DNA of 64,000 bases, taken from Novosphingobium sp. SG707. Its GTDB lineage: Bacteria; Pseudomonadota; Alphaproteobacteria; Sphingomonadales; Sphingomonadaceae. The first letter of the stretch is position 1, and every line of letters starts with the position of its first letter. This document shows, one piece after another, positions 11,079 to 64,000 of this stretch. The stretch spans positions 620,001-684,000 of the forward strand of contig NZ_JAAZQL010000002.1 of NCBI RefSeq assembly GCF_012275515.1, in the 5' to 3' direction. Below the pieces are notes generated by a model, which was not told where the DNA came from, did no database searches, and saw only the letters and a program-made list of their open reading frames with translations. Made by a program: the position numbers and the translations under genes.

Positions 11079-11090
11079 AAGGGAGAGCAA

Positions 11091-12141: not shown

Positions 12142-12166
12142 GCGTCTGGATTAAACGCCGGGGGAT

Positions 12167-12954: not shown

Positions 12955-12969
12955 GTCAGCCTCTCAAAC

Positions 12970-13048: not shown

Positions 13049-13052
13049 GCAA

Positions 13053-13074
13053 GCGTTGGCCGGAGGGCCAACGC
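13053..13074 (-). terminator. hairpin just downstream of 6S RNA
   Basis: 9-bp perfect stem with a 4-nt loop starts about 13 nt past the predicted 6S 3' end. It lacks a U-run, so it may be a processing stop rather than a classical terminator. Confidence 0.4.
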
Positions 13075-13086
13075 GCAACATATAAA

Positions 13087-13254: not shown

Positions 13255-13299
13255 ACATGTAGGCGCGATGGGGCAATTTCTCAAGGGCCAGAACGAAGG

Positions 13300-48307: not shown

Positions 48308-48802
48308 TTAAACCGAATTGCCGAACAGGCTCTGGATCGGGAAGTGATGTTTGATGAAGGGCGATTTGATCACGACATAGGAGAAATATTTCTCGATCCC
48401 GTAATCGCTTTCCAGCATCCCTTCGATGATCGACTGGTAATGCGACACGCCGCGCGTGACGAATTTGAGCAGATAGTCATAGCCGCCCGAAACCAGATGG
48501 CATTCGACGATCTCGTCCAGTTTCACGATCCGGCTTTCAAAGCGCGAAAAGTCGCCGCGCCGGTGTTCGGACAGCGTGACCTCGGTGAAAACCGTCAGAA
48601 ATTCGCCCAGCTTCCCAAGGTTGAGATGGGCCCCATAGCCGGTGATATAGCCCGCCTGCTCCAGCCTTTTTACCCGCGTCAGGCAAGGGCTGGGCGAGAG
48701 GCCCACCGCATCGGCCAGTTCGACATTGGTGACGCGCCCGGCCTGTTGCAGCTTGGCAAGGATCTTGAGATCGATGCGGTCGAGTTTGGGGCCGGGCATC
48801 AT
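48308..48802 (-). CDS. Lrp/AsnC family transcriptional regulator
   Basis: 164 residues: an N-terminal helix-turn-helix (about 10-60, L-S-P-S-P-C-L-T-R-V-K-R-L) and a C-terminal RAM ligand-binding domain. It likely responds to an amino acid and controls the operon it sits in, since it lies between the aminotransferase and the amidohydrolase. Confidence 0.92.
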   Translation of the reverse strand: MMPGPKLDRIDLKILAKLQQAGRVTNVELADAVGLSPSPCLTRVKRLEQAGYITGYGAHLNLGKLGEFLTVFTEVTLSEHRRGDFSRFESRIVKLDEIVECHLVSGGYDYLLKFVTRGVSHYQSIIEGMLESDYGIEKYFSYVVIKSPFIKHHFPIQSLFGNSV

Positions 48803-48816: not shown

Positions 48817-50205
48817 TTATTGGCCGATTGCGGAGCGAATATCGGCCTGATCTAGCAATTGGTCGAGCGTCAATTGCACACGGTCGAAAATGATGTCCAT
48901 TTCCTCGGGCGTGCAGGTCAGCGCCGGGGCAAAGCCGATGACCGCATTGGCGAAACAGCGCACGATCACGCCATTGTCCCAGGTCATCTGCGAGAGGCGA
49001 TCGCCCAGCGCCAGATCGGCGGCGAAGGGCGCCTTGGTGTCCTTGTCGGCCACGAGTTCGATCGCGCCCAGCAGCCCGCGATAGCGCACATCGCCCACCA
49101 GCGGATGGCTGCGGATCGCCTCCATGCGCGCGGCGAAACGTTCGCCCACCATCACGCCATTGGCCAGCACGCCGCCCTCGCGATAGAGGCGCAGCACTTC
49201 CAGCCCCACGGCGGCGGCCACCGGATGGCCCGAATAGGTGCCGCCATGGCCCACCGGCAGCGGGCTGGCATCGGCAATCGCCTGATAGATATGGTCGGCC
49301 ATGAACAGCGCGCCCATCGGGGCATAACCGGCGGTCAGGCCCTTGGCGGTGGTCATGAAATCTGGCGTCACGCCCTCGGCCTCGCAGGCGAACAATGGCC
49401 CGGTGCGGCCAAAGCCGGTGATGACTTCATCGACCAGCAGCAGGATGCCAAGCCGGTCGCAGGCTTCGCGGATGGCTTTGAGCCAGCCCACGGGCGGCAC
49501 GATGACGCCGCCGCTGCCCTGAATGGGTTCGCAGCAGAAGGCGGCAACCTTGTCCGCGCCGATTTCGGCCACCTTGGCTTCCAGCGCCTCAATGGTGCTG
49601 GCGATTACGGCGGCATCGTCATCGCCATTGGGGTGGCGATAGGGATAGGGCGAGGCGATATGGTGCTGCCACTTATACGGCAGATCGAAACCGCGATGGA
49701 AATTGGGCAGTGCGGTCAAACCGGCGCCCATCGCCGAGGAGCCGTGATAGCCCCATTCGAGCGCGATGAACTCTTTCTTGTCCGGTTTGCCGATGGCGTT
49801 GAAATAGTGGACGATATAGCGCACCGCGCTGTCCACCGAATCCGAACCGCCTTGCGTGAAATAGACGTGATTGAGGCCCTCGGGCGTCAGTGCGGTCAAT
49901 TCTGCCGCCAACCGGATCGCCGGTTCGCTGGCAAAGTGGAAATAGCCCGTGGCATAGGGCAGGCGGCGCATCTGCTCGGCGGCGGCTTCCACCACGCTGT
50001 CCTGACCATAGCCGACATTGACGCACCACAGGCCGGCAAAGCCGTCGATGACGCGCTTGCCTTCTATATCGGTCAGCCACATGCCGTCCCCGCTGGCCAA
50101 AACGCGTGCGCCATGCGCCTCGTGGCCCCGGAAAGAGGCCACCGGGTGGATCAGGTGATCGCGGTCAAGGTCGATCAGCGAGCGGTTGGTCAGGGTTTCG
50201 GTCAT
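48817..50205 (-). CDS. class III (omega-amino) aminotransferase
   Basis: 462 residues, PLP fold type I. The PLP lysine is in T-T-A-K-G-L-T. D-E-V-I-T-G-F-G-R-T-G and the N-terminal G-L-W-C-V-N-V-G-Y are typical of putrescine/beta-alanine-type transaminases. It transfers an amine from an omega-amine to pyruvate or 2-oxoglutarate, giving an aldehyde for the dehydrogenases nearby. Exact amine unknown. Confidence 0.9.
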   Translation of the reverse strand: MTETLTNRSLIDLDRDHLIHPVASFRGHEAHGARVLASGDGMWLTDIEGKRVIDGFAGLWCVNVGYGQDSVVEAAAEQMRRLPYATGYFHFASEPAIRLAAELTALTPEGLNHVYFTQGGSDSVDSAVRYIVHYFNAIGKPDKKEFIALEWGYHGSSAMGAGLTALPNFHRGFDLPYKWQHHIASPYPYRHPNGDDDAAVIASTIEALEAKVAEIGADKVAAFCCEPIQGSGGVIVPPVGWLKAIREACDRLGILLLVDEVITGFGRTGPLFACEAEGVTPDFMTTAKGLTAGYAPMGALFMADHIYQAIADASPLPVGHGGTYSGHPVAAAVGLEVLRLYREGGVLANGVMVGERFAARMEAIRSHPLVGDVRYRGLLGAIELVADKDTKAPFAADLALGDRLSQMTWDNGVIVRCFANAVIGFAPALTCTPEEMDIIFDRVQLTLDQLLDQADIRSAIGQ

Positions 50206-50279: not shown

Positions 50280-51347
50280 TCAGCCGATGGCTTCGGAAAT
50301 CGCCTTGCCGCATTCCACGGTATTGGCGCTGCCCTTCAGATCGCCGGTGCGGCCCGTGGGGGTGGACAGGACGTGTTCGATGGCGCGCATGATGCCCGCC
50401 GCCGCTTCTGCCTCGCCCAGATGCTCGAGCATCATCGCGGCCGACCAGATCTGGCCTACCGGATTGGCTAGCCCCAAGCCCGCGATATCGGGCGCCGAAC
50501 CGTGGACGGGCTCGAACAGGCTGGGGTGCTCGCCGGTGGGGTTGATATTGCCGCTGGGCGCGATGCCGATCGTGCCGGTGCAGGCCGGGCCAAGGTCGGA
50601 CAGGATATCGCCGAACAGATTGGAGGCGACCACCACGTCGAAACGCTGGGGGTTCATCACGAATTGCGCGGTCAGGATGTCGATGTGATACTTGTCATGG
50701 CTCACATCGGGATATTCCTCGCCAATGGCTTCCACGCGCTTGTCCCAGAAGGGCATGGTGATGGCGATGCCGTTCGATTTGGTGGCGCTGGTCAGGTGTT
50801 TGCGCTCGCGCTTCTGCGCCAGATCGAAGGCAAAGCGCAGCACGCGGTCAATGCCCTGGCGCGTCATCACGGTTTCCTGAATGACGATCTCACGCTCGGT
50901 CCCGGCAAACATATGGCCGCCGACGCTGGAATATTCGCCCTCCGTGTTTTCGCGGACCACCCAGAAGTCGATGTCGCCCGGTTCGCGGCCCGCCAGCGGA
51001 CAGGGCACGCCCGGCATCAGACGCACCGGGCGCAGATTGACGAACTGATCATATTCGCGGCGGAATTGCAGCAGGCTCTGCCACAGCGAAATGTGATCAG
51101 GCACCGTTTCGGGCCAGCCCACCGCGCCAAAGAAGATCGCATCGGGGCGGCCGATCTGATCCTTCCAATCCTCGGGCATCATGCGGCCATGCCGGGCATA
51201 ATAATCGCAATCGGCGAAATTATGCACCTGCAGATCCAGCCCGAAACCATAGGCGCCCGACGCCTTTTCCAGCGCGCGCAGGCCCTCGGGCATGACTTCC
51301 TTGCCAATGCCGTCCCCGGCGATGACGGCGATCTTGTAATTGCGCAT
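50280..51347 (-). CDS. tartrate/D-malate dehydrogenase-like protein
   Basis: 355 residues of the isocitrate/isopropylmalate dehydrogenase superfamily. G-D-G-I-G-K-E near the N-terminus, R-E-N-T-E-G-E-Y, and D-I-L-S-D-L are intact. The subfamily is TtuC/DmlA-like, acting on D-malate or tartrate with NAD+ and Mn2+/Mg2+. Substrate in this operon is not clear. Confidence 0.87.
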   Translation of the reverse strand: MRNYKIAVIAGDGIGKEVMPEGLRALEKASGAYGFGLDLQVHNFADCDYYARHGRMMPEDWKDQIGRPDAIFFGAVGWPETVPDHISLWQSLLQFRREYDQFVNLRPVRLMPGVPCPLAGREPGDIDFWVVRENTEGEYSSVGGHMFAGTEREIVIQETVMTRQGIDRVLRFAFDLAQKRERKHLTSATKSNGIAITMPFWDKRVEAIGEEYPDVSHDKYHIDILTAQFVMNPQRFDVVVASNLFGDILSDLGPACTGTIGIAPSGNINPTGEHPSLFEPVHGSAPDIAGLGLANPVGQIWSAAMMLEHLGEAEAAAGIMRAIEHVLSTPTGRTGDLKGSANTVECGKAISEAIG

Positions 51348-51352: not shown

Positions 51353-52813
51353 TTATGCCCCCAATTCCAGCCCGCCGATATGGAAGGCCTTGGTTTCCAG
51401 ATATTCCTCGATGCCTTGCTGTCCGCCTTCGCGGCCAAGGCCCGATTGCTTGACGCCGCCAAAGGGCGCCATTTCCATCGCGATCCCGCCGGTGTTCAGC
51501 GCGATCATCCCGGCCTCAAGCGCCTCGGCCACGCGGAACGAGCGCGACAGGTCGCGGGTGTAGAAATAGGCGGCAAGGCCGTAGGGGGTGTCATTGGCCA
51601 TCTCGATCGCCTGCCGCTCGCTGGTAAAGCGGAACAGCGGGGCGAGGGGGCCAAAGGTTTCTTCCGAGGCCAGACGCATTTCGGGATTGGCATCCCCGAT
51701 GATGACGGGGCGGACAAAGCGGTCATCGCTGCGGCCCTTGCCTTCGCCGATGATTCTGCCGCCCTTGCCCAGCGCGTCTTCCAGATGGGCGCTGACCTTC
51801 TCGACGGCGGCGGCGTTGATCAGCGGGCCAACGGTGGAATCGGCCTCCATCCCCGGCGCGGCGTTCAATTGCGCAACCGCGGCGGCCAGCTTTTCGGCAA
51901 AGGCGTCATAGATTTCATCGGCCACCAGCATCCGGTTGGCGCAGACGCAGGTCTGCCCGGCATTGCGGAATTTGCTGGCCATCGCCGCCTTCACCGCCAG
52001 ATCGAGATCGGCATCGGCAAAGACGATCAACGGCGCATTGCCGCCCAATTCCATGCTGGTCCGCTTCACGGTCTTTGCGCATTGTTCAAGCAGCAAGGAG
52101 CCCACGCGGGTCGATCCGGTGAAGGACAGCTTGCGCACCAGCGGGCTGCCGGTGATCGCCGCTCCGATGGCCGTGGGCAGGCCGGTCACGATATTGATGA
52201 CGCCTTCGGGGAAGCCCGCCCGCAAGGCCAGTTCGCCCAGCGCCAGCGCGGTGAAGGGTGTCATTTCCGAAGGCTTGATCACCACCGGGCACCCGACGGC
52301 CAACGCGGGCGCGCATTTGCGCGTGATCATCGCGGCGGGGAAATTCCACGGCGTGATCGCCGCCGAAACGCCCACCGGCTCGGTCAGCACGATGACGCGC
52401 CGATCGCGTTCGGGCGAGACGACGTTGCGCGCGCCGGTGCGGCGGCCTTCTTCGGCAAACCATTTGATGAAGCTGGCGGCATAGCGGATCTCGCCCTGCG
52501 CCTCGGCCAGCGGCTTGCCCTGTTCGGCGGTCATGATCAGAGCCAGATCGTCCAGATTGGCCAGCACCAGAGCGTGCCATGCCTCCAGCAGCGCGCAGCG
52601 TTCGCCCGCCGTGCGCGCGCGCCATGCGGGCCATGCTGCATTGGCCGCCGCAATGGCGTCCTGTGTGTCATCGCCCGTGCAATCGGGCACCGCGCCCAGC
52701 ACCGCACCATTGGCCGGGTCCTTCACCGCCAGCGCATCGCGCGAGGAGGCGCCAAGCCATTGTCCGCCGATCAGCGCGGCCTGCTTCAAAAGGGTGTTAT
52801 CGGAAAGCTGCAT
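51353..52813 (-). CDS. succinate-semialdehyde dehydrogenase-like aldehyde dehydrogenase
   Basis: 486 residues. Catalytic Cys in N-A-G-Q-T-C and the general-base Glu in M-E-L-G-G-N are present. Closest in pattern to GabD (P-W-N-F-P, K-P-S-E-M-T-P). Would oxidise the aldehyde produced by the class III aminotransferase. 5 bp upstream of the dehydrogenase gene. Confidence 0.9.
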   Translation of the reverse strand: MQLSDNTLLKQAALIGGQWLGASSRDALAVKDPANGAVLGAVPDCTGDDTQDAIAAANAAWPAWRARTAGERCALLEAWHALVLANLDDLALIMTAEQGKPLAEAQGEIRYAASFIKWFAEEGRRTGARNVVSPERDRRVIVLTEPVGVSAAITPWNFPAAMITRKCAPALAVGCPVVIKPSEMTPFTALALGELALRAGFPEGVINIVTGLPTAIGAAITGSPLVRKLSFTGSTRVGSLLLEQCAKTVKRTSMELGGNAPLIVFADADLDLAVKAAMASKFRNAGQTCVCANRMLVADEIYDAFAEKLAAAVAQLNAAPGMEADSTVGPLINAAAVEKVSAHLEDALGKGGRIIGEGKGRSDDRFVRPVIIGDANPEMRLASEETFGPLAPLFRFTSERQAIEMANDTPYGLAAYFYTRDLSRSFRVAEALEAGMIALNTGGIAMEMAPFGGVKQSGLGREGGQQGIEEYLETKAFHIGGLELGA

Positions 52814-52816: not shown

Positions 52817-53671
52817 TTACCCCAGTGCTTGGGTGGTGAGAGCAAAGAGCGTGGCGTTGGGCGCCGTTTCGGGCAGAGGCCCCCGCGCCATCATGCGTAC
52901 CGTATCGACGCGCGGCAGGCCAAGCCCTTCCAGCCATGGCGAAAGTCCGCTTTCCTCGGTCACATCTAGGCGGGTGAAATTGCCCGCATTCTGGGCCAGC
53001 CAGTGCAGGATCAGCGCCTTGGCGCCATCGGCATCGGGCGCCACCACAGGCGCCACCGACCATCCCCGGCCAAACCGGCGCAGCAGGGCAAAGCCGACGG
53101 GAATATCGTCATGGGTCAGCACCACCGTGCTGTCCTGCGCGGTCAGGGCGCGCATCATCGCATGACGGTCGGTGCCGGTGGCCTTGCTGTACAATTCGCC
53201 CGGCGTCTGTTCGGACGAGCCGAGCGGGCGGATGCGCTCCCCGCTGCGCAGCGCGGCCAGCGGGGCCAGCGGGATCGTGCCCTGATGTTGATGCAGCGTG
53301 CCGATATCGACAAAGCCCAGCTTTTCATAAAGCGGCGCGCCCTCGACCGTGGCCTGAAGCAGCACGGTGCGGTTGCCCAGATGGTCGAGCATCGCCTGCA
53401 TCAGCTGGCGGCCATAGCCTTTGCCCTGATGCGCATCATCGACGATCACCATGCCCAGCGTCGCGGCATGATCGCCATAGGGAAAGCCGCAGATGGTGCC
53501 GATCACCTCTCCGTCCACCTCGGCCACGATGCCATGGCCCAGGCTTAGAAACAGCGCCCAGTCCTCTTCACGATGCGGCCAGGAGAGCGCGCGTGACATC
53601 TCGACCGCGCGCTCGACATCTTCATGCCGCATCGCCCGAAAACTCACGTCGCTGGTGACCAGCTCGCCCAT
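52817..53671 (-). CDS. GNAT family N-acetyltransferase, two-domain
   Basis: 284 residues from the ATG at 53671, which has AAAGGAG seven bases before it; the frame is open to 53722. N-terminal GNAT domain with motif A Q-G-K-G-Y-G-R-Q-L-M. The second half is less conserved and may be a divergent second GNAT fold. Substrate unknown. First gene of the leftward seven-gene unit. Confidence 0.87.
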   Translation of the reverse strand: MGELVTSDVSFRAMRHEDVERAVEMSRALSWPHREEDWALFLSLGHGIVAEVDGEVIGTICGFPYGDHAATLGMVIVDDAHQGKGYGRQLMQAMLDHLGNRTVLLQATVEGAPLYEKLGFVDIGTLHQHQGTIPLAPLAALRSGERIRPLGSSEQTPGELYSKATGTDRHAMMRALTAQDSTVVLTHDDIPVGFALLRRFGRGWSVAPVVAPDADGAKALILHWLAQNAGNFTRLDVTEESGLSPWLEGLGLPRVDTVRMMARGPLPETAPNATLFALTTQALG

Positions 53672-53790
53672 CGCCGCACTCCTTTCCTTTGCCCCGCCAA
53701 CCGTATTGGTGTGTCGGCGCATCCAAACGAGGGGGTGATGCGCCAGTCCTGATAATGGGTTAGCCCCGCGCGAATGGAATAGGCTGCCGC

Positions 53791-53909: not shown

Positions 53910-55379
53910 ATGACGATTGCCTTCAACCCCGATTCCATCCGGCCCGATCTGGCGGCTAATTTCATCGGTGGGCGCAAAATTCTGGGCGCTGGCGCGGTGT
54001 TCGATGTGTTGCGGCCTTCCGATGGGGGCCTGCTCTCGCCCTTGCACGCGGCCAGCATGGATCAGATGAGCCAAGCGGCAGAAGATGCCGCCGCCGCGCA
54101 GAAAAGCAGCGGCTGGGGCCGGATGGACCCGCGCGCCCGCGCCCGCATCCTGCACCGCTGGGCCGATGCGATTGACGCCGACCGCGCGGTTCTGGCCCCG
54201 CTGGAAGCGGTGGGCTCGACCCGCACGCTGGCCGAGATTCTGGCATGGGATCTGCCCTATACCGCCGAATGCATACGCTTTTTCGCCGAATTTGCCGATA
54301 AGCACGGCGGCGAGGTGGGCGCCACCGCCGATGACCGTTTTGGTTTCACCGCCAATGAACCCTATGGCGTGGTCGGCGCAATTGCGCCGTGGAACCTGCC
54401 GCTGGTGATGGCGGCGTGGAAATTGGGTCCGGCGCTGGCGGCGGGCAATGCGGTGGTGCTCAAGCCTTCCGAACTCACGCCCTTCTCGGTGGTGCGTCTG
54501 GCCGAATTGGCGGTGGCGGCAGGCGTGCCTGCGGGCATCTTCAACGTGGTGCAGGGCATGGGCCATGACATTGGCGATGGCCTTGTGCGCGCAGAGCAAG
54601 TTGGCAAGGTCAGCTTTACCGGATCGACCGCCACGGGCCGTGCGATCATGAGCGCCTGTGCGGCCACCGGGCCGAAACCCTGCACGCTCGAACTGGGCGG
54701 TAAGAGCCCGCAGATCATCTTTGCCGACGCGGATATGGACAAGGCCTGCGCGATTGTCGCCCGCGCGATCACCTTGAACGCCGGTCAGGTCTGCGTCGCC
54801 GGTTCGCGCCTGCTGGTCGAGGCCAGCGTGGCCGATGAGGTGACCGGGCGCATCGCCGCCCTGTTCCGCGCCCACCGTTTGGGCGAGACATGGGCCGATG
54901 GCACGACGATGGGGCCGATCGTTTCGGAAAAGCAATTGGCCGGGATCGACGCCATCGTGCAAACCGCCCATGCCGAGGGCGGCGAGGCGATCACCGGCGG
55001 GGCGCGGGTAGAACGGGCGGGGACTTTCTACGAACCCACCCTGATCGCGGGCCTTTCCGCCGACGCCACTGCGGTGCAGAGCGAGATCTTCGGCCCGGTG
55101 CTGACGGTGCAGAGCTTTGCCGATGATGAGGAAGCCTATGCGCTGGCCAATGGCACGCGCTATGGTCTGGCGGCGGGGGTTCATACCCAGAACCTGAGCC
55201 GCGCGATCCGCGCCACGCGGGCGCTTGAGGCAGGCACGGTCTGGGTCAACCGCTATGGCCGCTCGGATGATTTCATCCTGCCCACCGGCGGTTTCAAGCA
55301 ATCGGGGCTGGGCAAGGATCTGGGGCGCGAGGCCTATCTGGCAAGCTGCAAGAGCAAAACGGTGCTGATCGGGCTGTAA
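53910..55379 (+). CDS. aldehyde dehydrogenase (PuuC-like)
   Basis: 489 residues. Catalytic Cys in N-A-G-Q-V-C and Glu in L-E-L-G-G-K are intact; P-W-N-L-P-L and K-P-S-E-L-T-P are present. It fits the gamma-glutamyl-aminobutyraldehyde/betaine-aldehyde branch rather than SSADH. Divergent from the GNAT operon and convergent with the oxidase operon. Confidence 0.9.
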   Translation: MTIAFNPDSIRPDLAANFIGGRKILGAGAVFDVLRPSDGGLLSPLHAASMDQMSQAAEDAAAAQKSSGWGRMDPRARARILHRWADAIDADRAVLAPLEAVGSTRTLAEILAWDLPYTAECIRFFAEFADKHGGEVGATADDRFGFTANEPYGVVGAIAPWNLPLVMAAWKLGPALAAGNAVVLKPSELTPFSVVRLAELAVAAGVPAGIFNVVQGMGHDIGDGLVRAEQVGKVSFTGSTATGRAIMSACAATGPKPCTLELGGKSPQIIFADADMDKACAIVARAITLNAGQVCVAGSRLLVEASVADEVTGRIAALFRAHRLGETWADGTTMGPIVSEKQLAGIDAIVQTAHAEGGEAITGGARVERAGTFYEPTLIAGLSADATAVQSEIFGPVLTVQSFADDEEAYALANGTRYGLAAGVHTQNLSRAIRATRALEAGTVWVNRYGRSDDFILPTGGFKQSGLGKDLGREAYLASCKSKTVLIGL

Positions 55380-55419: not shown

Positions 55420-56556
55420 TTATTTGGCAAACCGCGTCACCGCATAATGTTCGAGCGGAATATCGGTCGCGCCCGTGGCGATCAATTCAGCCATGGTTTC
55501 GCCCACGCCCGGCCCGATCTGAAACCCGCTGCCCGAAAAGCCGAAGGCGTGGAACAGGCCTGAAACCTTGGCGCTCGGCCCCATGATCGGCAGGGCGTCA
55601 TCGGTATAGCCCTCGATCCCGCTCCACACGCGGATGACCTGCAGATTGGCCAGTGCCGGGGCCAGACGGCGCAGATGCTGAAACTGCGTCATGGTGTTTT
55701 GCGGCAAGACATAGGAGCGATAGTCGTCGGGATAGGATTGCGCCCGCGTCGATCCGCCCAGCACGATATTGCCGCGCGCCACCTGCCGGAAATAGACGGT
55801 TTCCACCTCATCGGGCGTCATCACGCCCACGGCGGGCGCGATGGCATAGGGCACCGGCTCGGTCACGCTCATCGTCGGCGCGCGCGGGGTGAGGGGGATT
55901 TCCTCGCCGAACCAGCCCGCGATCTTGCCCGCCCATGCGCCCGCCGTAATCAGCAGGATCGGCGCGGCAAACTGGCGACCATCCTCGGCAGTCAGGCGGA
56001 AATCTTCACCCACCTTCTCGGCATGGACAATCTTGGTGTCCTCGACGATGGACGCCCCCAGCCGCGCCGCCGCCCGCGCAAAGGCAGGCGCGGCAAGGCG
56101 CGGATTGGCATGGCCGTCGGTGGCCGAATAGGACCCGGCCAGCACGTCCGGCCCCAGCCACGGAAATTTCTCCCGCAAGGCATTGGCGGACATCAATTCG
56201 AGGTCCAGCCCTTCCTCACGCGCAAGGGCGGCATATTCCTCCATCTTGCCGATATTTTCCGGGCGGTTGCGGAAGCACACGCGGATATGGCCGCTTTGCA
56301 GATATTCCACATCCGCGCCCAGCAATTGCGGGGAATCGCGCCAGATGCGGATCGCCCGATTGGCCAGGGGAAGCTGAAAGATCGGGCGACCCTGACGGCG
56401 CACATTGCCGAAATTGGTGCCGCTGGCCTGCCGCCCCACCTTGTCGGTTTCCAGCAGCGTCACCGACATGCCACGCTGGCGCAGGAAAAGTGCCGCGCTG
56501 CATCCCATTAAACCGCCACCGATGATGGCGACATCGCTCTGGTGGATCTGGGTCAT
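55420..56556 (-). CDS. FAD-dependent oxidoreductase, DadA/HcnC-like subunit
   Basis: 378 residues. N-terminal dinucleotide fold I-I-G-G-G-L-M-G-C-S. C-terminal DadA-type G-F-S-G-S-G-F-Q-I-G-P motif. Resembles the catalytic beta subunit of opine oxidases, D-hydroxyproline dehydrogenase and HcnC. It oxidises a C-N bond of an amino acid or imino acid. ATGA overlap with the preceding FAD/BFD gene; last gene of the operon. Confidence 0.88.
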   Translation of the reverse strand: MTQIHQSDVAIIGGGLMGCSAALFLRQRGMSVTLLETDKVGRQASGTNFGNVRRQGRPIFQLPLANRAIRIWRDSPQLLGADVEYLQSGHIRVCFRNRPENIGKMEEYAALAREEGLDLELMSANALREKFPWLGPDVLAGSYSATDGHANPRLAAPAFARAAARLGASIVEDTKIVHAEKVGEDFRLTAEDGRQFAAPILLITAGAWAGKIAGWFGEEIPLTPRAPTMSVTEPVPYAIAPAVGVMTPDEVETVYFRQVARGNIVLGGSTRAQSYPDDYRSYVLPQNTMTQFQHLRRLAPALANLQVIRVWSGIEGYTDDALPIMGPSAKVSGLFHAFGFSGSGFQIGPGVGETMAELIATGATDIPLEHYAVTRFAK

Positions 56557-57923
56557 AGGTCGTTCCGCTTCAGACTCACGGGGATGGGTTTGATCGGGGC
56601 CTGCCCGCGCAGGCGGCCGGTCTTTTCCAGCGATACGCTGCGCGCCGCCGCGATGATTTCGGCGCTGGCATGACCACAATAGCGCCCTTGGCACCGGCCC
56701 ATGCCGACGCGGCTGAAGGCCTTGGCGCGGTTGGCTTCCTGCGCATGAGCGGTGTTCACGCTGGCACGCAGGTTGGCGGCGGTCACGGCCTCACAGCGGC
56801 AGACGATGGCCTCATCGGGGATCGCGGCGACCAGTTCATGTGGCCATGGGAAAGCCTGCGCCAGCCCCTTGGCGAAGGTCGCGTAATTGGCCTTTTCGGC
56901 CAGCAACCAGCGGCGGCGATCCGCATCTACCGTCAGGCCCAGATCGGCCAACGCGGCCATCGCGGCCAGTTCGCCCGTCACCTCGGCGCTGCGCGCGCCC
57001 AGCACGCGGGCTCCATCGCCGCCAAGGTAGAGCGCATTGCCCGCCCGCCCATCGGCATCGGTCTGGGGCAGCCATTGGCGCGTGGCTGGATCAAAAGCGA
57101 AAGTGGCGCGGGCCAGATCGGCAATCTGCGCCTCGGGCTTCACATGCCAGCCCATGGCCACGGCATCGCCCGCGAAATGCTTGACCGCGCCCTTGTGGCG
57201 CACGGTCACGCCCGAAACGCCGCTCTGAGTATCGCCCTCGATTTCCACCGGCGTCACGCCCGTCAGCACCGGCACGCCCGCGCGCTTCAGATCGCCCAGC
57301 AGTTTCATCCCCTGCCACAAAAGACCGGGCATGGCGGCCAGTTTCGGCGCGGCCTTCACCCTCAGCCAGAAAGGCGAGGTGTCCAGCACGGCGGCCACCT
57401 CGGCCCCGGCCTTCACATATTGCGCGGCGGCCAGATAGAGCAGCGGGCCGGAGCCGAGGAAGATCACCCGATGCCCGATGGCGCAGCCCTGAGCCTTGAG
57501 CGCAATCTGCGCCCCGCCCAGCGAATAGCACCCCGCCGCCTGCCAGCCCTTGATCGGGGCCACACGGTCGCTGGCCCCGCTGCACACGATCAGAGCATCA
57601 TAGGGTATCGCCTGCGTCTCGCCTTCATGCGCGGCCCAGACATGACCTTCGGCCACATTCCACACCAGCGTTTCGGGGCGATAGTCGATATGGGGCAGGA
57701 GGGCGGCGAAATCCTCATGGATCGCGCGGGCGCGGGCCGCCTCCGTGCCGTAAAGCGCTTCGTGGTCGCGCTGGAAATTTTCCGGCGGGCGGCGATAGAT
57801 CTGGCCGCCGGCGCGGGCGGCCTCGTCGATGACGATGGGGCGCAATCCTGCGCGCACCACCGCCTGCGCCGCGCGCACCCCGGCAGGGCCTGCGCCGACG
57901 ATGATTACGCGATGGTCGCCCAT
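56553..57923 (-). CDS. NAD(P)/FAD oxidoreductase with C-terminal [2Fe-2S] domain, HcnB-like subunit
   Basis: 456 residues. N-terminal FAD motif V-G-A-G-P-A-G-V-R-A, a second nucleotide fold F-L-G-S-G-P-L-L, and a C-terminal BFD-like iron-sulfur domain (C-R-C and C-Q-G-R-Y-C). It matches the alpha subunit of three-component opine-type dehydrogenases (OoxA/NoxA, HcnB). Start at 57923 chosen at the dinucleotide fold; it overlaps the [2Fe-2S] gene by 19 bp. Confidence 0.9.
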   Translation of the reverse strand: MGDHRVIIVGAGPAGVRAAQAVVRAGLRPIVIDEAARAGGQIYRRPPENFQRDHEALYGTEAARARAIHEDFAALLPHIDYRPETLVWNVAEGHVWAAHEGETQAIPYDALIVCSGASDRVAPIKGWQAAGCYSLGGAQIALKAQGCAIGHRVIFLGSGPLLYLAAAQYVKAGAEVAAVLDTSPFWLRVKAAPKLAAMPGLLWQGMKLLGDLKRAGVPVLTGVTPVEIEGDTQSGVSGVTVRHKGAVKHFAGDAVAMGWHVKPEAQIADLARATFAFDPATRQWLPQTDADGRAGNALYLGGDGARVLGARSAEVTGELAAMAALADLGLTVDADRRRWLLAEKANYATFAKGLAQAFPWPHELVAAIPDEAIVCRCEAVTAANLRASVNTAHAQEANRAKAFSRVGMGRCQGRYCGHASAEIIAAARSVSLEKTGRLRGQAPIKPIPVSLKRNDL

Positions 57924-58228
57924 GTCGCCTCCGGCTGGTGAGTCGAAATTTCCATGCCGCCCTGCACCGGCGTTGAACAGGCGCGCAGACGCTCGCCCTG
58001 CGCGGTCCAGACCCAGCAGTCCTGACACGCCCCCATCAGGCAAAAGCCCGCGCGGCGGCCATCGGTCGGTTCAAGGTCTGAAAATTCGCTGCTGCGCAAC
58101 GCATCGCCGTTGGTCAGCATCGCCACCATCAGCGTATCGCCCGCCAGCGCGGTGACGCTCACGCCGTCGACGGTGAGGCTCACCTGCGGCCGGTCGGTTT
58201 CGACAAGGCGGCGGAAACGGGCGCTCAT
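57905..58228 (-). CDS. [2Fe-2S] small subunit, HcnA-like
   Basis: 107 residues. Cysteines C63, C68, C71 and C84 form a C-x4-C-x2-C-x12-C ferredoxin-like site. It is the gamma subunit of HcnABC/opine-oxidase-type complexes. Overlaps the ABC ATPase gene by 4 bp (ATGA) and the FAD gene by 19 bp. Confidence 0.88.
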   Translation of the reverse strand: MSARFRRLVETDRPQVSLTVDGVSVTALAGDTLMVAMLTNGDALRSSEFSDLEPTDGRRAGFCLMGACQDCWVWTAQGERLRACSTPVQGGMEISTHQPEATWATIA

Positions 58229-59997
58229 GCTTGTTCCTTGATGCTGGGGGAATGGTGGCACAGCCAGCGCATGCCATCGCCTTCGCGCAACGGCGCAGGC
58301 ACGGCATCGCACAGGCCCGGAACGGCCTCGGCGCAACGCGGCTGAAACGGGCAAAGGCCCTCGACGCGAAAACCGCGCAGGATCGGCGCGCGCGTGGTGT
58401 CGAGCCAGCGCGGGTCCATCGTGGGCAGGCTCGATTTGAGCAGGCTGGTATAGGGATGATGGCGCGACCCGTTGAAGGCCGCGCGCGTGGCCAGTTCGAC
58501 CGGCGTGCCGCCATACAGCACCAGTACCTTTTCGCACAAAGCCGAAACCGCGTGGATATCATGGCTGATAAACACCGTGGCCAGCCCCAGATCGCGGCGC
58601 AGATCCTCGATCAGCGAGAGGATCGCCGCGCCAACGACCGTATCGAGCGCGGATGTCACTTCATCGCAGAGCAGCACCTTAGGCTCGGCCGCCAGCGCGC
58701 GGGCAAGGTTGACGCGCTGCTTCTGGCCGCCCGACAGCTTCGTCACGGGCCGGTCGATCACCTCGGCGGGCAGGCGCGTCAGGTCCAGCAATTCGGCCAC
58801 CCGTCGATCCGCCGCCGCGCCGGTCAACCCGTGGTAATGCTGCAAGGGGCGGGCAAGTATGCGGCGCACGCTATGGGCCGGGTTGAGCGCAGTGTCGGCG
58901 TTCTGAAACACCAGTTGCACGGTGCGGAATTGATCGAGGCTGCGATCTTCCAGCCGTGGCGGCAGGGCGCTGCCGTTCAGCAGGACCTCGCCCTGTGCCG
59001 CAGGCAGCAGCCCGGCGATCACGCGGGCCAGCGTCGATTTGCCCGATCCGCTCTCGCCAATGATGCCCAGCGCGCCGCCCGCAGGCAGATCAAACGCCAC
59101 ATCGCGCAGCACCGGAATCTGCGGCATTCCATCGATAACGCGGCCATAGCCCGCCGTCAGCCCCCGCACCGAGAGCACCGGCGCGGCATCATCGCCCGCA
59201 GGCGCGGCAGGCACCGGATGGGGCGCATTGACCAGCACCTGCGTATAGGCATCGCGCGGCGCGGTCAGCACCTGCTCGGCCGGGCCTTCCTCCACCAGCC
59301 GCCCTTTCAAAAGCACGGCGATGCGGTCGGCCATCTGGGCCACCACGGCAAGGTCATGGCTGACATAGATCGCGGTGGCGCCCCGGCCATGGTTGCAATG
59401 GGCCAGCGCGGCCTTGAAGCACTTGAGAACCTCGACCTGCGTAGTCACGTCGAGCGCCGTGGTTGGCTCGTCCAGGATCACCAGTTCGGGATCGGTGATC
59501 AGCGCCATCGCCGCCATCAGACGCTGCAATTGCCCGCCCGACACCTGATGCGGATAGCGATCACCAATCGTCTCGGGCGAGGGCAGGGCCAGCGCGCGGA
59601 ACAGGTCCACCGCCTTGGCCTCGGCCTCCTGGCGCGTCATGATGCGGTGGATGATGGCCGGTTCGATCACCTGCGCCATGATCCGGCGCGAAGGGTTGAA
59701 GGCCGCCGCCGCGCTTTGTGCGATATAGGCGATATGGCGGCCCCGGATCGCGGAGAGCTCTTCCTCGCTCTTGCCCTCGATCACCATGCCGCCCACGCGG
59801 ATCGTGCCGCTCGCGATGCGTCCGCCATGGCGGCACCATCCCATCAGGGCCAGCGCGGTCGTGCTCTTGCCCGAACCGGATTCCCCAATCAGCGCCAGCA
59901 CCTCTCCGCGCTGTACGGCAAAGGAAATGTCCGAAACAATCGGCACATCGCCCACCGCCACGGTCAGGCCGGAAACTTCGATATGGGGGGCGCTCAT
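58225..59997 (-). CDS. fused DppD-DppF-type peptide ABC transporter ATPase
   Basis: 590 residues made of two ABC domains. Walker A motifs G-E-S-G-S-G-K-S lie at 38-45 and 314-321, with V-S-G-G-Q and L-S-G-G-Q signatures. In most peptide importers the two ATPases are separate proteins; here they are one chain. It powers import with the two permeases and binding protein of the same operon. Confidence 0.94.
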   Translation of the reverse strand: MSAPHIEVSGLTVAVGDVPIVSDISFAVQRGEVLALIGESGSGKSTTALALMGWCRHGGRIASGTIRVGGMVIEGKSEEELSAIRGRHIAYIAQSAAAAFNPSRRIMAQVIEPAIIHRIMTRQEAEAKAVDLFRALALPSPETIGDRYPHQVSGGQLQRLMAAMALITDPELVILDEPTTALDVTTQVEVLKCFKAALAHCNHGRGATAIYVSHDLAVVAQMADRIAVLLKGRLVEEGPAEQVLTAPRDAYTQVLVNAPHPVPAAPAGDDAAPVLSVRGLTAGYGRVIDGMPQIPVLRDVAFDLPAGGALGIIGESGSGKSTLARVIAGLLPAAQGEVLLNGSALPPRLEDRSLDQFRTVQLVFQNADTALNPAHSVRRILARPLQHYHGLTGAAADRRVAELLDLTRLPAEVIDRPVTKLSGGQKQRVNLARALAAEPKVLLCDEVTSALDTVVGAAILSLIEDLRRDLGLATVFISHDIHAVSALCEKVLVLYGGTPVELATRAAFNGSRHHPYTSLLKSSLPTMDPRWLDTTRAPILRGFRVEGLCPFQPRCAEAVPGLCDAVPAPLREGDGMRWLCHHSPSIKEQA

Positions 59998-60815
59998 CGC
60001 TTGTCCTCGGGCTTGAGGGCGTCAATCAACAGGTTCGTCCCCACCGTCAGCACGGCAATCGCCAGTGCGGGCGCGAGGATCGCAGGCGCGCCCTCGGTAA
60101 GGCCCGAGATATTCTCGCGCACCAGCGAGCCAAGGTCGGCATAGGGCGGCTGTACCCCAAGGCCAAGGAACGACAGGCCCGAGAGCAGCAGCACCACGAA
60201 CACGAAGCGCAGGCCCAGATCCGCCAGCAGCGGGTGGATCATATTGGGCAGCACCTCGTGGAGGGCGATGGCGAATTTGCGCTCGCCCCGCGCGCGGGCC
60301 GCCGCCACGAAATCCAGCGCGGCAAGGTTCATCGCCAGCGCGCGCGCAATGCGGAAATTGCCCGGCACATAGGTCAGCGCGCAGATCAGCAGCAGGAGCG
60401 GCAAGGACGAGCCGCAGGCCGCCACCAGCACCAGCGCAAGGATCTTGGACGGGATCGAGATCAGCGTGTCCATCGCGCGCGAGATGATCTCATCGACCAT
60501 CCCGCCCGACAAAGTGGCCCAGAGCGCAAGGGTCGTGCCGCAGCAGGCCGCCAGCAATGCCGCGCCCAGACCCAGAAACACCGTATAGCGCGCGCCATAG
60601 AGCAGGCGCGAAAACACATCGCGGCCCAGATAATCGCTGCCCAGCCAGAAGCGCGCGGACAGGCCGGAAAACACGTCCTGATCCACAAAGGCGCCCACCG
60701 GATGCGGCGCCACCCAAGGCCCCGCCACCGCCAGCACCAGCCAGAAGCCGACGAAACCGGCGGCAATGCGCGTGGCCAGAGGGGCCCCGGCCAAAAGGGA
60801 GATCGAGCGTTTCAT
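59994..60815 (-). CDS. peptide-type ABC transporter permease, DppC-like
   Basis: 273 residues, about six transmembrane helices. The A-A-R-A-x-G-E stretch and G-L-G-V-Q-P-P-Y are DppC features. Start at 60815 is in ATGA overlap with the DppB-like gene. Confidence 0.92.
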   Translation of the reverse strand: MKRSISLLAGAPLATRIAAGFVGFWLVLAVAGPWVAPHPVGAFVDQDVFSGLSARFWLGSDYLGRDVFSRLLYGARYTVFLGLGAALLAACCGTTLALWATLSGGMVDEIISRAMDTLISIPSKILALVLVAACGSSLPLLLLICALTYVPGNFRIARALAMNLAALDFVAAARARGERKFAIALHEVLPNMIHPLLADLGLRFVFVVLLLSGLSFLGLGVQPPYADLGSLVRENISGLTEGAPAILAPALAIAVLTVGTNLLIDALKPEDKR

Positions 60816-61786
60816 TGCGCACGCAGCCTTGGGTTGGCCAGCAGCGCGACCATATCGGCCACCAGCATCAAGAGGAGATAGGCCGAGCAGAAGATCATCG
60901 CGCAGGCCTGCAACAAGGGCATGTCGCGGCTGGTCACGGCATTGACCATCAGACTGGCCAGACCCGGAAAGTTGAAGATGGTTTCGACAATGATCGCCCC
61001 GCCCATCAGGTAGGAGAGCGAAAGCGCCATCGCATTGACAATCGGCCCCAGACAATTGGGCAGCACATGGCCCAACACCACGCGCGAGAGCGAAGCGCCC
61101 TTCAAACGCGCCATTTCGACATAGGGCCGGTCAAGCTGATCCGCGATGGCGGCGCGGGTCATGCGGGCCATCTGCGCCACCACCACCACCGTCAGCGACA
61201 GGATCGGCAGCGCACAGGAGCGCAAAGTGTCGCTCCAGCTCGCCTCGGCCGAAACCATCGCGATCGAGGGCAGCCACATGAGCTTGACCGAAAAGATCAG
61301 CACGCCCACCGTCGCCACCAGAAATTCGGGCAGCGCCACCATCGAGAGCGAGGCCAGATTGATCGCCCGGTCGATCCATGTGCCGCGCCGGATCGCCGCC
61401 GTAATGCCCATGATCAGCGCCAGAGGCACCGCCAGCACCGCCGTCATCCCCGCCAGCATCAGCGTGTTGGGCAGGCGTTCGGCAATGATCGCGCCCACCG
61501 GCATGCCGGCCACCAGCGATTGCCCCGCATCGCCCTGAACCATGCCCGAGAGCCAGCGCGCGTAACGCACCGGGGCGGGTTGGTCCAAGCCCATTTCGTG
61601 GCGCAGCGCGGCAACCTGTTCGGGCGTGGCGGACTGGCCAAGGGCCTCCTGCGCCGCATCGCCCGGCAACAGGCCCGCAATGGCAAAGATCACCATCGAG
61701 ACCAGCAGCAGCGTCAACGCTGCCGAACCCACCCGCCGGGCCACCATCGGCCACAGGCTGGCCTTTCCGGTTTTTGCCCCGCTCAT
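60812..61786 (-). CDS. peptide-type ABC transporter permease, DppB-like
   Basis: 324 residues with about six transmembrane helices. The D-Q-P-A-P-V-R-Y-A-R-W N-terminal loop and A-R-x-K-G-A-S coupling region are DppB features. The start at 61786 gives an ATGA overlap with the binding-protein gene; an ATG at 61798 is an alternative. Confidence 0.92.
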   Translation of the reverse strand: MSGAKTGKASLWPMVARRVGSAALTLLLVSMVIFAIAGLLPGDAAQEALGQSATPEQVAALRHEMGLDQPAPVRYARWLSGMVQGDAGQSLVAGMPVGAIIAERLPNTLMLAGMTAVLAVPLALIMGITAAIRRGTWIDRAINLASLSMVALPEFLVATVGVLIFSVKLMWLPSIAMVSAEASWSDTLRSCALPILSLTVVVVAQMARMTRAAIADQLDRPYVEMARLKGASLSRVVLGHVLPNCLGPIVNAMALSLSYLMGGAIIVETIFNFPGLASLMVNAVTSRDMPLLQACAMIFCSAYLLLMLVADMVALLANPRLRAQ

Positions 61787-63303
61787 GCCGCCCACCATAC
61801 GTGTTCGGCAAATTGATAGCCCATCAATCCTCCCATCGGCAGCGGGTTCAGCCCCTGCAACCGCCGGTCATGGCCGTCGATCAGGCTGATGAAGACCGGG
61901 ATGATCGAGCCGCACTGGTCATGCACGATCTGTTGCATCTCGCCATACATGGCCTTGCGGTCTGCCTCGTTTGTCTCACCCCGCGCGGCCAGCAGGAGCT
62001 GGTCAAAGCGCGGGTTTTTCCATCCCGTCTCGTTCCATGCGGCGTCGGATTTGTAGAAAAGCGAGAAGACCAGATCGGCGGTCGGGCGCGGATTGGTGCT
62101 GCCAAAGGAAAGCGGATGGCGCATCCAGTGCGTGGACCAGTATCCGTCCGAGGGCACCCGCGTAATGGCCAGATCGAGGCCCGCGCGCGCGCCATATTCC
62201 TGAAGCACCGAGGCCATATCGACCGAGCCTTCGACCGCCGGGCCGCAAAAGATCGGCAGGCGCACGTTCTGCAACCCGCCGCGCCGCACATGCCATTTCG
62301 CCCGGTCAAGATCGAGCGCGGTCTGGGGAATGGCGGGGTTGTAATAGGGGTGAAAGGGCGGGATCGGCTGATCATTGCCGATGGTGGCATAGCCGCGAAA
62401 CAGCGCGCGTTTCACCAGCGGGCGGTCCACCAGATGTTTGAGCGCGGCGATGAAATCGGGATTGCCGCTGGGCAGGCGATCCATCCGCGCGATCAGGTTG
62501 GAATAGAGCGCCGATGGCGTGGTGGCGATGGCATGGGCCGGGGATGCCTCGACGCGGCGGGTGGAATGCGGGGCCACCGCGTTCACCAACTGCACATCGC
62601 CCGCCAACAGCGCGTTGATACGGCTGACCTCATCGGGAATGGCGATCAGTTCAATGCGGTCGAGATAGGGCTTGCCCGGCACCCAATAGTCGGGATTGCG
62701 GACCACCACGGTGCGGATGCCCGGCTTGAATTCGGCCAGGCGGAATGCGCCCGTGCCATTGCCGTCGGGTCGATCCACCCCGTGGCGCACGATCAGGAAA
62801 TGCGACTGCGCCAGAAGGGCGGGCAAATCGGCATTCGGCCCGGTCAGGCGGATGACCACGCCATAGCGGCCATCGGCGCGCACCTCGGCAAATTGCTCGG
62901 CAAGGCTGGCCATCTTGCTGCCCAGCTTGGGGTCTTTGTGGCGCAGCAGCGAGAAGACAACATCCGCGCTGGTCAATTCGCCGCCATGATGGAAATGCAC
63001 GCCCCGGCGCAGCGCGACATGCCATGTGGTCCGGTCGGCGCTCTCGATCCGTTCGGCCAGCGAAGGATGCGCGAGCAGATCATGCCCGATCCGCGCCAGG
63101 CCCGAATAGAGCATGTAGTGGCGCACATAATCGGTGGAGAGCGCGCCCTTGGCCGGGTCGAGCGTGTCGGCGGTGGAGACCGATTGCGTGGCCACGCGGA
63201 TCGAACCGCCGCGTTTGGGCAAGGCGGCGCCCATCGCGGGCAGGCCCGTCAGGCCAGCGCTTAATCCGCCCAGCAACATGGCGCGGCGTGAAAAGTCCAT
63301 CAT
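61783..63303 (-). CDS. extracellular solute-binding protein, peptide/opine class (SBP family 5)
   Basis: 506 residues. The N-terminus F-S-R-R-A-M-L-L-G-G looks like a Tat signal (twin arginine near residue 5), ending at A-M-G-A. The mature protein follows SBP_bac_5 order (L-D-P, L-T-S-A-D-V-V-F, N-P-x-Y). Binds the imported substrate in the periplasm. Start at 63303 is in ATGA overlap with the FAD oxidase gene. Confidence 0.9.
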   Translation of the reverse strand: MMDFSRRAMLLGGLSAGLTGLPAMGAALPKRGGSIRVATQSVSTADTLDPAKGALSTDYVRHYMLYSGLARIGHDLLAHPSLAERIESADRTTWHVALRRGVHFHHGGELTSADVVFSLLRHKDPKLGSKMASLAEQFAEVRADGRYGVVIRLTGPNADLPALLAQSHFLIVRHGVDRPDGNGTGAFRLAEFKPGIRTVVVRNPDYWVPGKPYLDRIELIAIPDEVSRINALLAGDVQLVNAVAPHSTRRVEASPAHAIATTPSALYSNLIARMDRLPSGNPDFIAALKHLVDRPLVKRALFRGYATIGNDQPIPPFHPYYNPAIPQTALDLDRAKWHVRRGGLQNVRLPIFCGPAVEGSVDMASVLQEYGARAGLDLAITRVPSDGYWSTHWMRHPLSFGSTNPRPTADLVFSLFYKSDAAWNETGWKNPRFDQLLLAARGETNEADRKAMYGEMQQIVHDQCGSIIPVFISLIDGHDRRLQGLNPLPMGGLMGYQFAEHVWWAA

Positions 63304-64000
63304 TGGAAATAGTCCAGCACGCGGTAATAGGCGCCCACAAAGGGCAGGAACCATGGCTTGCCCAGATGGCCGGGAATGGCGGGCCAGGCGAGATCGGCAA
63401 AGGGATTGGCATCGGCATCGCCGCCCATCACCTTGGCCATCTGTCCGCCCATATGGGTGGCCATCTGTACGCCATGGCCCGAATAGCCCATGGCGTAATA
63501 CAGGCCCTCATGCTCACCCGCGCGGGGCAGGCGGTCCTGCGTCAGGTCGATCGCGCCGCCCCAGCGATGGTCGATTTGCGTGCCCGCCAAATCGGGGAAC
63601 AGGCGCGTCATGGCCTTTTCCAGAATATCCGCGCCCTTCAGATCCGAGGCCGGGTTCGACAGGGCAAAACGCGCCCTCCCGCCAAACACCAACCGGTTGT
63701 CGGCGGTCAGGCGGAAGTAATTGCCGATGATCCGGCTGGTGACGTAATTGCGGCGGCCCGGAAACAGGTGATCGACCAAGGCGGCGTCGATGGGCGCGGT
63801 GGCGATGGCAAAGCTGCCCACGGTGACGATGCGGCGGCGAAACCAGCCGAAGGGCGCCTGCGGGCTGGCCCCGCCGGTGGCGACCAGCACCTGCGATGCC
63901 GAGACAGCGCCGCGCGAGGTTTCCACGCGATAGGCCGCGCCCTCACGTTTGATCCCGGTAACGGGCGCCTGTTCCCAGATATGCGCGCCCGCGCGGGCGG
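63300..64000 (-). CDS. FAD-dependent amine/amino-acid oxidase (PuuB/DadA-like), 5' end outside window
   Basis: C-terminal ~233 residues are visible. The frame is open to the window edge, so the start is missing. It has V-A-T-G-G after a fold strand, the N-Y-V-T-S-R-I-I-G segment and C-terminal W-G-G-A-I-D-L-T and Y-S-G-H-G-V typical of gamma-glutamylputrescine oxidase and DadA-like enzymes. First visible gene of the leftward overlapping operon. Confidence 0.85.
   Translation of the reverse strand, partial: ARAGAHIWEQAPVTGIKREGAAYRVETSRGAVSASQVLVATGGASPQAPFGWFRRRIVTVGSFAIATAPIDAALVDHLFPGRRNYVTSRIIGNYFRLTADNRLVFGGRARFALSNPASDLKGADILEKAMTRLFPDLAGTQIDHRWGGAIDLTQDRLPRAGEHEGLYYAMGYSGHGVQMATHMGGQMAKVMGGDADANPFADLAWPAIPGHLGKPWFLPFVGAYYRVLDYFQ

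Follow-up and report, generated by a model that had tools for sequence, protein, structure and literature searches.

Gene content and architecture of the operon

The DNA analysed here is a 64,000-nucleotide stretch of the genome of Novosphingobium sp. SG707 (5.64 Mb), comprising bases 620001-684000 of contig C2 (NZ_JAAZQL010000002.1) and hereafter called the window. Eight minus-strand genes lie head to tail at window positions 55420-64580, the last by coordinate extending beyond the window edge. They encode a flavin amine oxidase, an ATP-binding cassette (ABC) importer and a three-subunit flavin/[2Fe-2S] enzyme, termed the trio. Synteny across loci shows one catabolic island of about 23 kb, of which these genes would be the import-and-oxidation half. 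Our leading, still tentative, proposal is that this island breaks down an azetidine-2-carboxylate with an N-substituent, the likeliest candidates being nicotianamine and the mugineic-acid phytosiderophores, singly or together. The best clue to the substrate is a HAD hydrolase encoded just outside the window. In window coordinates, which run on into the neighbouring DNA (L003), the eight genes are as follows.

63300-64580 (L003:13300-14580; 63300..64000 inside the window), minus strand, AmaA/PuuB-like FAD amine oxidase, the first oxidase (PF01266, 220 bits)
61783..63303, minus strand, family 5 solute-binding protein (PF00496, 198 bits)
60812..61786, minus strand, ABC permease B (PF00528, PF19300)
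59994..60815, minus strand, ABC permease C (PF00528)
58225..59997, minus strand, fused two-domain ABC ATPase of the Dpp/Nik DF type (PF00005, oligo_HPY)
57905..58228, minus strand, trio gamma, [2Fe-2S] protein (PF13510, 85.7 bits)
56553..57923, minus strand, trio alpha, FAD/pyridine-nucleotide fold with a BFD [2Fe-2S] domain (PF07992, PF04324)
55420..56556, minus strand, trio beta, DAO-type FAD amine dehydrogenase (PF01266, 233 bits)

The stop and start positions bear out the six 4-bp junctions and one 19-bp junction reported for the eight genes in the initial annotation. Overlaps of 4 bp join the oxidase to the binding protein (63300-63303), the binding protein to permease B (61783-61786), permease B to permease C (60812-60815), permease C to the ATPase (59994-59997), the ATPase to trio gamma (58225-58228) and trio alpha to trio beta (56553-56556), and the 19-bp overlap joins gamma to alpha (57905-57923). 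The start codons were chosen by us; the alternative start of permease B at 61798 would lengthen its overlap with the binding-protein gene to 16 bp. Junctions were also counted in orthologous operons that carry the trio, roughly, since the starts were picked automatically. On the trio side, the ATPase/gamma (4 bp, 49/53), gamma/alpha (19 bp, 44/54) and alpha/beta (4 bp, 43/54) overlaps recur, and thus the trio appears tightly welded to the ATPase gene of the importer. The 4-bp overlaps of the importer side recur in 9/54 operons between oxidase and binding protein and in 7/54 between binding protein and permease B, with the permease B/C overlap kept in 31/54 and the permease C/ATPase overlap in 30/54. 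The description of the operon as fully overlapping is therefore true of this strain, whereas the importer junctions vary among its orthologues; overlap at every junction is partly particular to this strain. The eight products may be made in step, or in equal amounts.

The HAD hydrolase resembles azetidine-2-carboxylate hydrolases

The operon is not limited to these eight genes; the neighbouring DNA shows that it continues past the window edge. In order of transcription, a TonB receptor, a PepSY protein, a GhrA-like dehydrogenase and the HAD hydrolase precede the first oxidase.

67423-69555, TonB siderophore-type receptor (TIGR01783, 266.5 bits, above the cut-off of 223.5)
about 66352-67350, PepSY protein (PepSY_TM, 120.8 bits)
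65402-66355, GhrA-like 2-hydroxyacid dehydrogenase
64586-65254, type II HAD hydrolase

A gap of 5 bp separates the end of the HAD gene from the first oxidase gene that follows it, and the GhrA-like and PepSY genes overlap by 4 bp if the PepSY start is right.

The island HAD scores above the cut-off for haloacid dehalogenase type II (TIGR01428, 153.2 versus 125.4 bits), a family name that leaves the leaving group unsettled. A search with the single sequence gave 81.6 bits with 8hp5 and 72 bits with 3smv, the next kind of protein following at 39.9 bits. A profile built from 20 island HADs matched five solved azetidine-2-carboxylate (AZC) hydrolases (8hp5-7, 3smv and 8yvw) at 98.7-106.9 bits, about 41 bits ahead of the next best, an epoxysuccinate hydrolase (57.3); haloacid dehalogenases reached at most 51.5. 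Entries 8hp5-7, themselves named haloacid dehalogenase, are taken as AZC hydrolase from the title of 8hp7, which names (2R)-4-amino-2-hydroxybutanoic acid as the molecule trapped in the enzyme. Catalytic residues Asp12 and Lys149 are present in 22/22 HADs without exception and correspond to D12 and K152, the residues mutated in 8hp6/8hp7; the same Asp and Lys are found in AZC hydrolase (3smv, 8hp5-8hp7), the kind of enzyme to which AzhA of Aspergillus also belongs. The AlphaFold2 model of the HAD (mean predicted local distance difference test score, pLDDT, 91.4) has 8hp7 as its best match (Z 25.7, root-mean-square deviation (rmsd) 2.4, 219 aligned residues, 29% identity), and an ordinary haloacid dehalogenase ties with it at Z 25.6, so structure alone does not choose between the two kinds of enzyme.

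Among the matches listed from a plasmid collection (50 of 405), HAD relatives share either at least 54% or at most 36% identity with the island HAD, a gap that points to a separate subfamily. From these sequence comparisons we infer that the island HAD works like an AZC hydrolase. We do not file it as a member of that group, because its active-site loop differs (HVSSSFRYD, versus HTAESLYHD in 3smv, with HTAES...HD also in 8hp5). The product of the Pseudomonas AZC hydrolase, 2-hydroxy-4-aminobutyrate, is subsequently transaminated, as stated in the available text of PMC8016842, and an aminotransferase is likewise encoded in the island. In contrast to the AZC hydrolase systems, the island HAD gene sits among genes for an importer and amine oxidases, as a substrate with an N-substituent would require.

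The island is conserved around the HAD gene

On the far side of the eight genes, the island continues within the window as follows.

53910..55379, plus strand, second aldehyde dehydrogenase, ALDH2 (aldehyde dehydrogenase families, none of the 25 matches shown above cut-off)
52817..53722, minus strand, two-domain GNAT acetyltransferase (Acetyltransf_18, Acetyltransf_7)
51353..52813, minus strand, succinate-semialdehyde-dehydrogenase-like aldehyde dehydrogenase (TIGR01780, 641.8 bits, slightly below the cut-off of 646.35)
50280..51347, minus strand, tartrate dehydrogenase family protein, TTuC (TIGR02089, 544.1 bits, above the cut-off of 470.4)
48817..50205, minus strand, class III omega-aminotransferase (PRK05965, a subfamily named hypothetical protein; 807.6 bits, cut-off 729)
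48308..48802, minus strand, Lrp/AsnC-family regulator (PF01037 and HTH_AsnC, above cut-off)
47137..48294, minus strand, M20 amidohydrolase (TIGR01891, 362.6 bits, cut-off 153.75)
46433..47128, minus strand, cupin, EutQ-like Cupin_3 (PF05899, 63.5 bits)

Related loci were collected with two baits. A search of a genome collection with the binding protein gave 178 relatives, of which the best 80 were kept, and counts on that set refer to these. Further loci were three annotated plasmid loci found with the binding protein and six found with the HAD. A phylum-wide set of 27 loci came from a draw of 398 genomes and was chosen only for the HAD, with one stretch per genome; several of these genomes hold a second HAD, and the stretch of G397 was taken around its second match. 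The stretches L150 and L159 end at contig ends, as does L146 on one side. Oxidases were counted in the 100 loci, out of 117 stretches, that hold a complete importer, the other 17 being left out.

The nearest named loci belong to Novosphingobium strains with binding proteins 94-95% identical to that of the window. Much of the set is found again in Sphingomonadales, in Niveispirillum, Nitrospirillum and Azospirillum, in Asticcacaulis, Pseudomonas, Burkholderiales and Rhizobium, and parts of it lie on a Rhodobacterales plasmid from seawater and on a Klebsiella plasmid from a vegetable. With our own genome counted in both, the HAD occurs in 28/398 genomes of the phylum and in 20/79 of the genus; the island is thus patchy, which would fit a mobile catabolic trait. 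No operon of this exact layout had been known to the initial annotation; importer, trio and first oxidase in fact occur together in 54 of the 100 complete-importer loci, that of the window included. The importer-plus-amine-oxidase kind of catabolic system is already known, and the island layout is common.

The linkage holds from either bait. Among the 100 complete-importer loci, the HAD lies within the stretch in 89 and the AmaA-like oxidase in 94; ten genomes of the 11 loci with no HAD in the stretch were tested, and all ten hold one elsewhere. Conversely, within 11 kb of the HAD in the 27 phylum-wide loci, and counting homologues at or above set identity thresholds (32% or more for the GNAT), we found the AmaA-like oxidase in 23, the GNAT in 23, the binding protein in 22, GhrA and ALDH2 in 18 each, the succinate-semialdehyde-dehydrogenase-like protein in 16, the aminotransferase in 15, a single-chain second oxidase in 12, the tartrate dehydrogenase in 9, the cupin in 5, the M20 protein in 3 and the trio in 2. 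Some amine oxidase is present in 25 of these loci, and binding protein and oxidase together in 21. Homologues of the tartrate dehydrogenase lie within 15 kb of the HAD for 15 of 41 genes (28 genomes), versus 0.31 expected by chance; the binomial P of about 8e-22 is too small, since related genomes are treated as independent.

These counts bear on an alternative in which the island detoxifies and uses free L-azetidine-2-carboxylate, the amine oxidases serving unrelated side reactions and the GNAT acetylating AZC as Mpr1 does. An AZC hydrolase and an N-acetyltransferase form the AZC-resistance pair of Aspergillus described in the available text of PMC8016842, and HAD, GNAT, aminotransferase and aldehyde dehydrogenase all lie in the island. 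However, a small proline analogue should need neither a family 5 importer nor two amine oxidases, and 25 of the 27 HAD loci carry such an oxidase, so that we regard free AZC as an unlikely substrate. An N-substituted azetidine is favoured instead because opening its ring would yield a secondary amine on which the oxidases could act.

The flavin trio and the first amine oxidase

The domain calls initially made for the trio hold: a Fer2_4 [2Fe-2S] protein (gamma), a FAD protein with a BFD domain (alpha) and a DAO-type protein (beta). The cluster cysteines are C63, C68, C71 and C84 in gamma, conserved in 52/52 orthologues, and C375, C377, C411 and C416 in alpha, conserved in 52/53 rows, with only one of the two partial matches in L081 deviating. 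According to the available text of PMC4575208, the Nox/Oox/Odh enzymes have the same FAD beta, FAD-BFD alpha and [2Fe-2S] gamma subunits with cluster cysteines, and their genes overlap and lie near ABC importer genes as they do here, with the order beta-gamma-alpha in place of gamma-alpha-beta. By analogy with that study, the trio is probably a dehydrogenase feeding electrons to the respiratory chain and not an oxidase. Identity of the trio to nopaline oxidase is 25.7% for beta (with NoxB), 31.4% for alpha (with NoxA) and 34.1% for gamma (with NoxC), whereas PpOdhB and AtNoxB share 40% (PMC4575208, same text); the trio as a close relative of nopaline oxidase was accordingly rejected.

The three-subunit architecture would equally suit a strict opine or D-hydroxyproline oxidase operon or a hydrogen cyanide synthase, that is, an orthologue of Nox/Oox/Odh, D-HypDH or HcnABC. 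The identities above, from a comparison that covered Nox, make such orthology highly improbable, and no hydroxyproline epimerase or arginine-catabolism gene is among the genes named, no search having been aimed at either. The first oxidase has the L-pipecolate oxidase AmaA as its best curated model (NF050086, residues 6-390), yet its 170.5 bits fall far below the cut-off of 600. The PuuB-like oxidase and HcnABC-like trio of the initial annotation are supported at the level of class, as an AmaA/PuuB-type oxidase and an alpha-beta-gamma flavin/[2Fe-2S] dehydrogenase. Uptake followed by oxidative breakage of a C-N bond had also been predicted, for an N-substituted amino acid or amine; an N-substituted amino acid is probably the right class, but neither the identities of the trio nor the score of the first oxidase support the particular substrates named (opines, D-hydroxyproline, N-methylated amino acids and gamma-glutamyl amines).

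Unlike Nox/Oox/Odh, the trio apparently gives way elsewhere to an oxidase made of a single chain. The 100 complete-importer loci comprise 54 with the trio plus the AmaA-like oxidase, 15 with a single-chain DAO protein (p_DAO) plus the AmaA-like oxidase, 25 with the AmaA-like oxidase alone and 6 with none. Since trio and p_DAO occur together in 0/100 loci, the simplest reading is that they are exchangeable for the same step. If so, the HcnABC/opine-oxidase architecture would be an exchangeable module within a conserved pathway.

The importer and the outer-membrane receptor

Matches to the family 5 binding protein, permease and ATPase domains support the opine/peptide class to which the importer had been assigned. 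Over both domains, the ATPase scores above the NikE and NikD cut-offs. The AlphaFold2 model of the binding protein (mean pLDDT 85.1) has 5u4o as its top match (Z 38.8, rmsd 2.5, 457 aligned residues). The TonB receptor matches FhuA at 174, the enantio-pyochelin receptor at 171 and FoxA/CntO entries at 129 bits.

We considered whether the island recycles bacterial opine metallophores of the staphylopine/pseudopaline type, taken up as metal complexes. The siderophore-type receptor with its FoxA/CntO match would fit, as would the ATPase score of 358 bits with models of the staphylopine importer, which falls short of the cut-offs (380 and 385). However, the binding protein reaches 23.5 bits with the CntA model NF047575, whose cut-off is 800, and to our knowledge these metallophores have no azetidine ring, which would leave the HAD unexplained. 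Metallophore recycling is therefore improbable. As for self-made nicotianamine, no nicotianamine synthase (PF03059) was found in the strain's own genome, which makes that source unlikely.

TonB and PepSY homologues occur in sphingomonads, some other alphaproteobacteria and one gammaproteobacterial bin. A scan for Fur boxes upstream of the HAD, GNAT, ALDH2 and hydroxyacid dehydrogenase genes gave no clear excess over shuffled sequence. A HGSNAT-like integral membrane protein is encoded directly before the TonB receptor (end of L003; L005:1-1150), and similar open reading frames (ORFs) occur in 37 examined loci.

A putative degradation pathway

The abundant natural N-substituted azetidines known are nicotianamine and the mugineic acids. 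From the gene content, the conserved linkage and the relation of the HAD to AZC hydrolases, we infer the following route. Initially, in this and related strains, the TonB receptor would take the chelator or its metal complex across the outer membrane, the PepSY protein may reduce the metal, and the family 5 binding protein with the BC-DF importer would bring the substrate in. The HAD would then open the azetidine ring by attack at C2 with inversion, as an AZC hydrolase does and as the (R) form trapped in 8hp7 implies, yielding an (R)-2-hydroxy-4-(alkylamino)butanoate, a secondary amine. Afterwards, the AmaA-like oxidase and the trio could cleave the C-N bonds by oxidation, with semialdehydes and amino acids (2,4-diaminobutyrate, for example) as products; the trio, as a dehydrogenase, would pass its electrons to the respiratory chain. 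The aminotransferase, a proposed 4-amino-2-hydroxybutanoate/diaminobutyrate transaminase, and the succinate-semialdehyde-dehydrogenase-like protein, a proposed malate-semialdehyde dehydrogenase, might convert 4-amino-2-hydroxybutanoate or malate semialdehyde to D-malate; transamination of the former yields the latter, which the dehydrogenase would oxidise. Finally, TTuC, a proposed decarboxylating D-malate dehydrogenase, would release pyruvate. ALDH2, GhrA, GNAT, M20 and the cupin may handle aspartate-semialdehyde, hydroxy- or keto-acid and acetylated side products.

The last step follows from the stereochemistry: from an (R) product one expects D-malate, and with it a dehydrogenase for D-malate; the island holds a tartrate dehydrogenase above its cut-off, with the tartrate dehydrogenase/decarboxylase 3flk as its closest solved relative (520 bits; next 265). 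The tartrate dehydrogenase family is able to decarboxylate D-malate to pyruvate. The set also resembles ectoine/diaminobutyrate degradation, to which DoeD and DoeC belong, in its DoeB2-like M20 protein, class III aminotransferase and semialdehyde dehydrogenase, and differs from it in the azetidine-type HAD and the amine oxidases. The M20 protein, possibly an N-acyl-diaminobutyrate deacylase, lies below the cut-offs for CpsA (362.7 versus 500) and DoeB2 (347 versus 550); its likeness to DoeB2 and the siderophore-type receptor fit a nicotianamine or mugineic-acid substrate but are no proof. Soil microbes readily degrade mugineic acids, and the instability of deoxymugineic acid is attributed to its strained azetidine ring, both according to the available text of PMC7946895.

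Several observations weigh against the proposed pathway. Besides its divergent loop and the tie in structure score, the HAD shares just 26-29% identity with AZC hydrolases, and its sequence, read by eye, shows no evident signal peptide, whereas the available text of PMC8016842 describes the AZC hydrolase of Pseudomonas as a periplasmic enzyme. The fold of the binding protein is equally like those of peptide, nickel and opine binders and singles out no ligand. No TonB or PepSY homologue was found in the 34 distant stretches (27 phylum-wide, 6 plasmid and the strain's own second HAD locus) or in the Pseudomonas stretches, which places metal-chelate uptake outside the conserved core. Upstream of TonB, an Escherichia coli-type Fur box with at least 13 of 19 matches appears in 2/55 cases, and the mean match to that consensus is 10.31 versus 10.24 in shuffled sequence. 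The tartrate dehydrogenase lies near the HAD in only 14/28 genomes. Furthermore, in six of the 100 importer loci the stretch contains no gene recognised as an amine oxidase. Four of these, all Novosphingobium (L012, L013, L031 and L040), do carry the HAD, as does a fifth, L103, where a gene annotated as FAD-binding oxidoreductase lies at the extreme end of the stretch. The HAD of L153 stands nearly alone, with almost none of the set. We found no substrate test of the island by anyone in the literature.

A serious rival, though in itself doubtful, is that the island serves another N-substituted amino acid or opine without an azetidine ring; in that case the HAD would act on a different carboxylate substituted at C2, and the tartrate dehydrogenase would use malate or tartrate supplied by a separate branch. 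It would account for the opine class of importer and trio, for the resemblance of the trio architecture to nopaline dehydrogenase (PMC4575208, available text), for the haloacid dehalogenase score and unusual loop of the HAD, and for TonB and PepSY lying outside the conserved core. On the other hand, it leaves unexplained both the constancy of the HAD (89/100 importer loci) and its closeness to AZC hydrolases.

Taken to its full extent, the nicotianamine/mugineic-acid proposal implies a widespread, undescribed and complete bacterial pathway, from import of these compounds through ring opening by the HAD and dealkylation by exchangeable oxidases to exit via D-malate, which is conceivable but rather uncertain. 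Quick degradation of mugineic acids in soil limits their use as an iron supply for cereals (available text of PMC7946895 and PMC12723747). In the open-access literature, preprints excluded and represented mostly by titles and the beginnings of abstracts, no bacterial gene for nicotianamine or phytosiderophore degradation was found named. If the proposal is true, the island provides candidate genes for mugineic-acid degradation and a chemical reason for the azetidine ring to be the vulnerable site; genes of the HAD subfamily that neighbour a family 5 importer could then serve as a marker for counting degraders in rhizosphere metagenomes.

Related clusters and other features of the window

The same genome holds a paralogous cluster (L004, G000:C1:728000-746000, at 5441-13742) with a LysR regulator, an aldehyde dehydrogenase, a HGSNAT-like membrane protein, a DAO oxidase and a second family 5 binding protein that is 67% identical to that of the island; no permease homologue lies in the stretch. 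It also encodes a protein resembling 3-hydroxy-D-aspartate aldolase (113 bits with BhcC, whose cut-off is 690), the gene for which adjoins the main island in other genomes (e.g. L065, L068, L074 and L076). Loci with this gene include L004, L020, L023, L036, L065, L068, L074, L076 and L082, among others. If the proposed pathway is true, such loci would be variants for hydroxylated mugineic acids.

The genome encodes another HAD of the island subfamily (54% identity) at 3720-8087 of L162 (G000:C17:1-18000), next to an APH-type kinase, a class III aminotransferase-fold protein and a HGSNAT-like ORF; perhaps these genes form a side branch made up of a kinase and a phospho-lyase. L067, L068 and L075 likewise have two HADs, the second of them next to an aminotransferase-like gene. 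In L101, L102 and L104, the islands of Pseudosulfitobacter, Azospirillum and Chelatococcus, a different gene annotated as HAD-IA hydrolase stands directly before the importer genes; it is absent from the window's version, and its products in L102 and L104 are 25-26% identical to the island HAD. Lrp/AsnC genes are annotated in L102 and L104 too.

A scan with Rfam at gathering cut-offs returned nothing within the operon, its only hits in the window being four tRNAs. Two of the tRNA genes are in tandem (11891-11964 and 12002-12075) with equal score, possibly a duplication. Elsewhere in the window, the small and large subunits of a [NiFe] hydrogenase are encoded at 40426-42902. A histidine-kinase-like ORF comes before them and a HypF-like ORF after them, both known from the ORF list.

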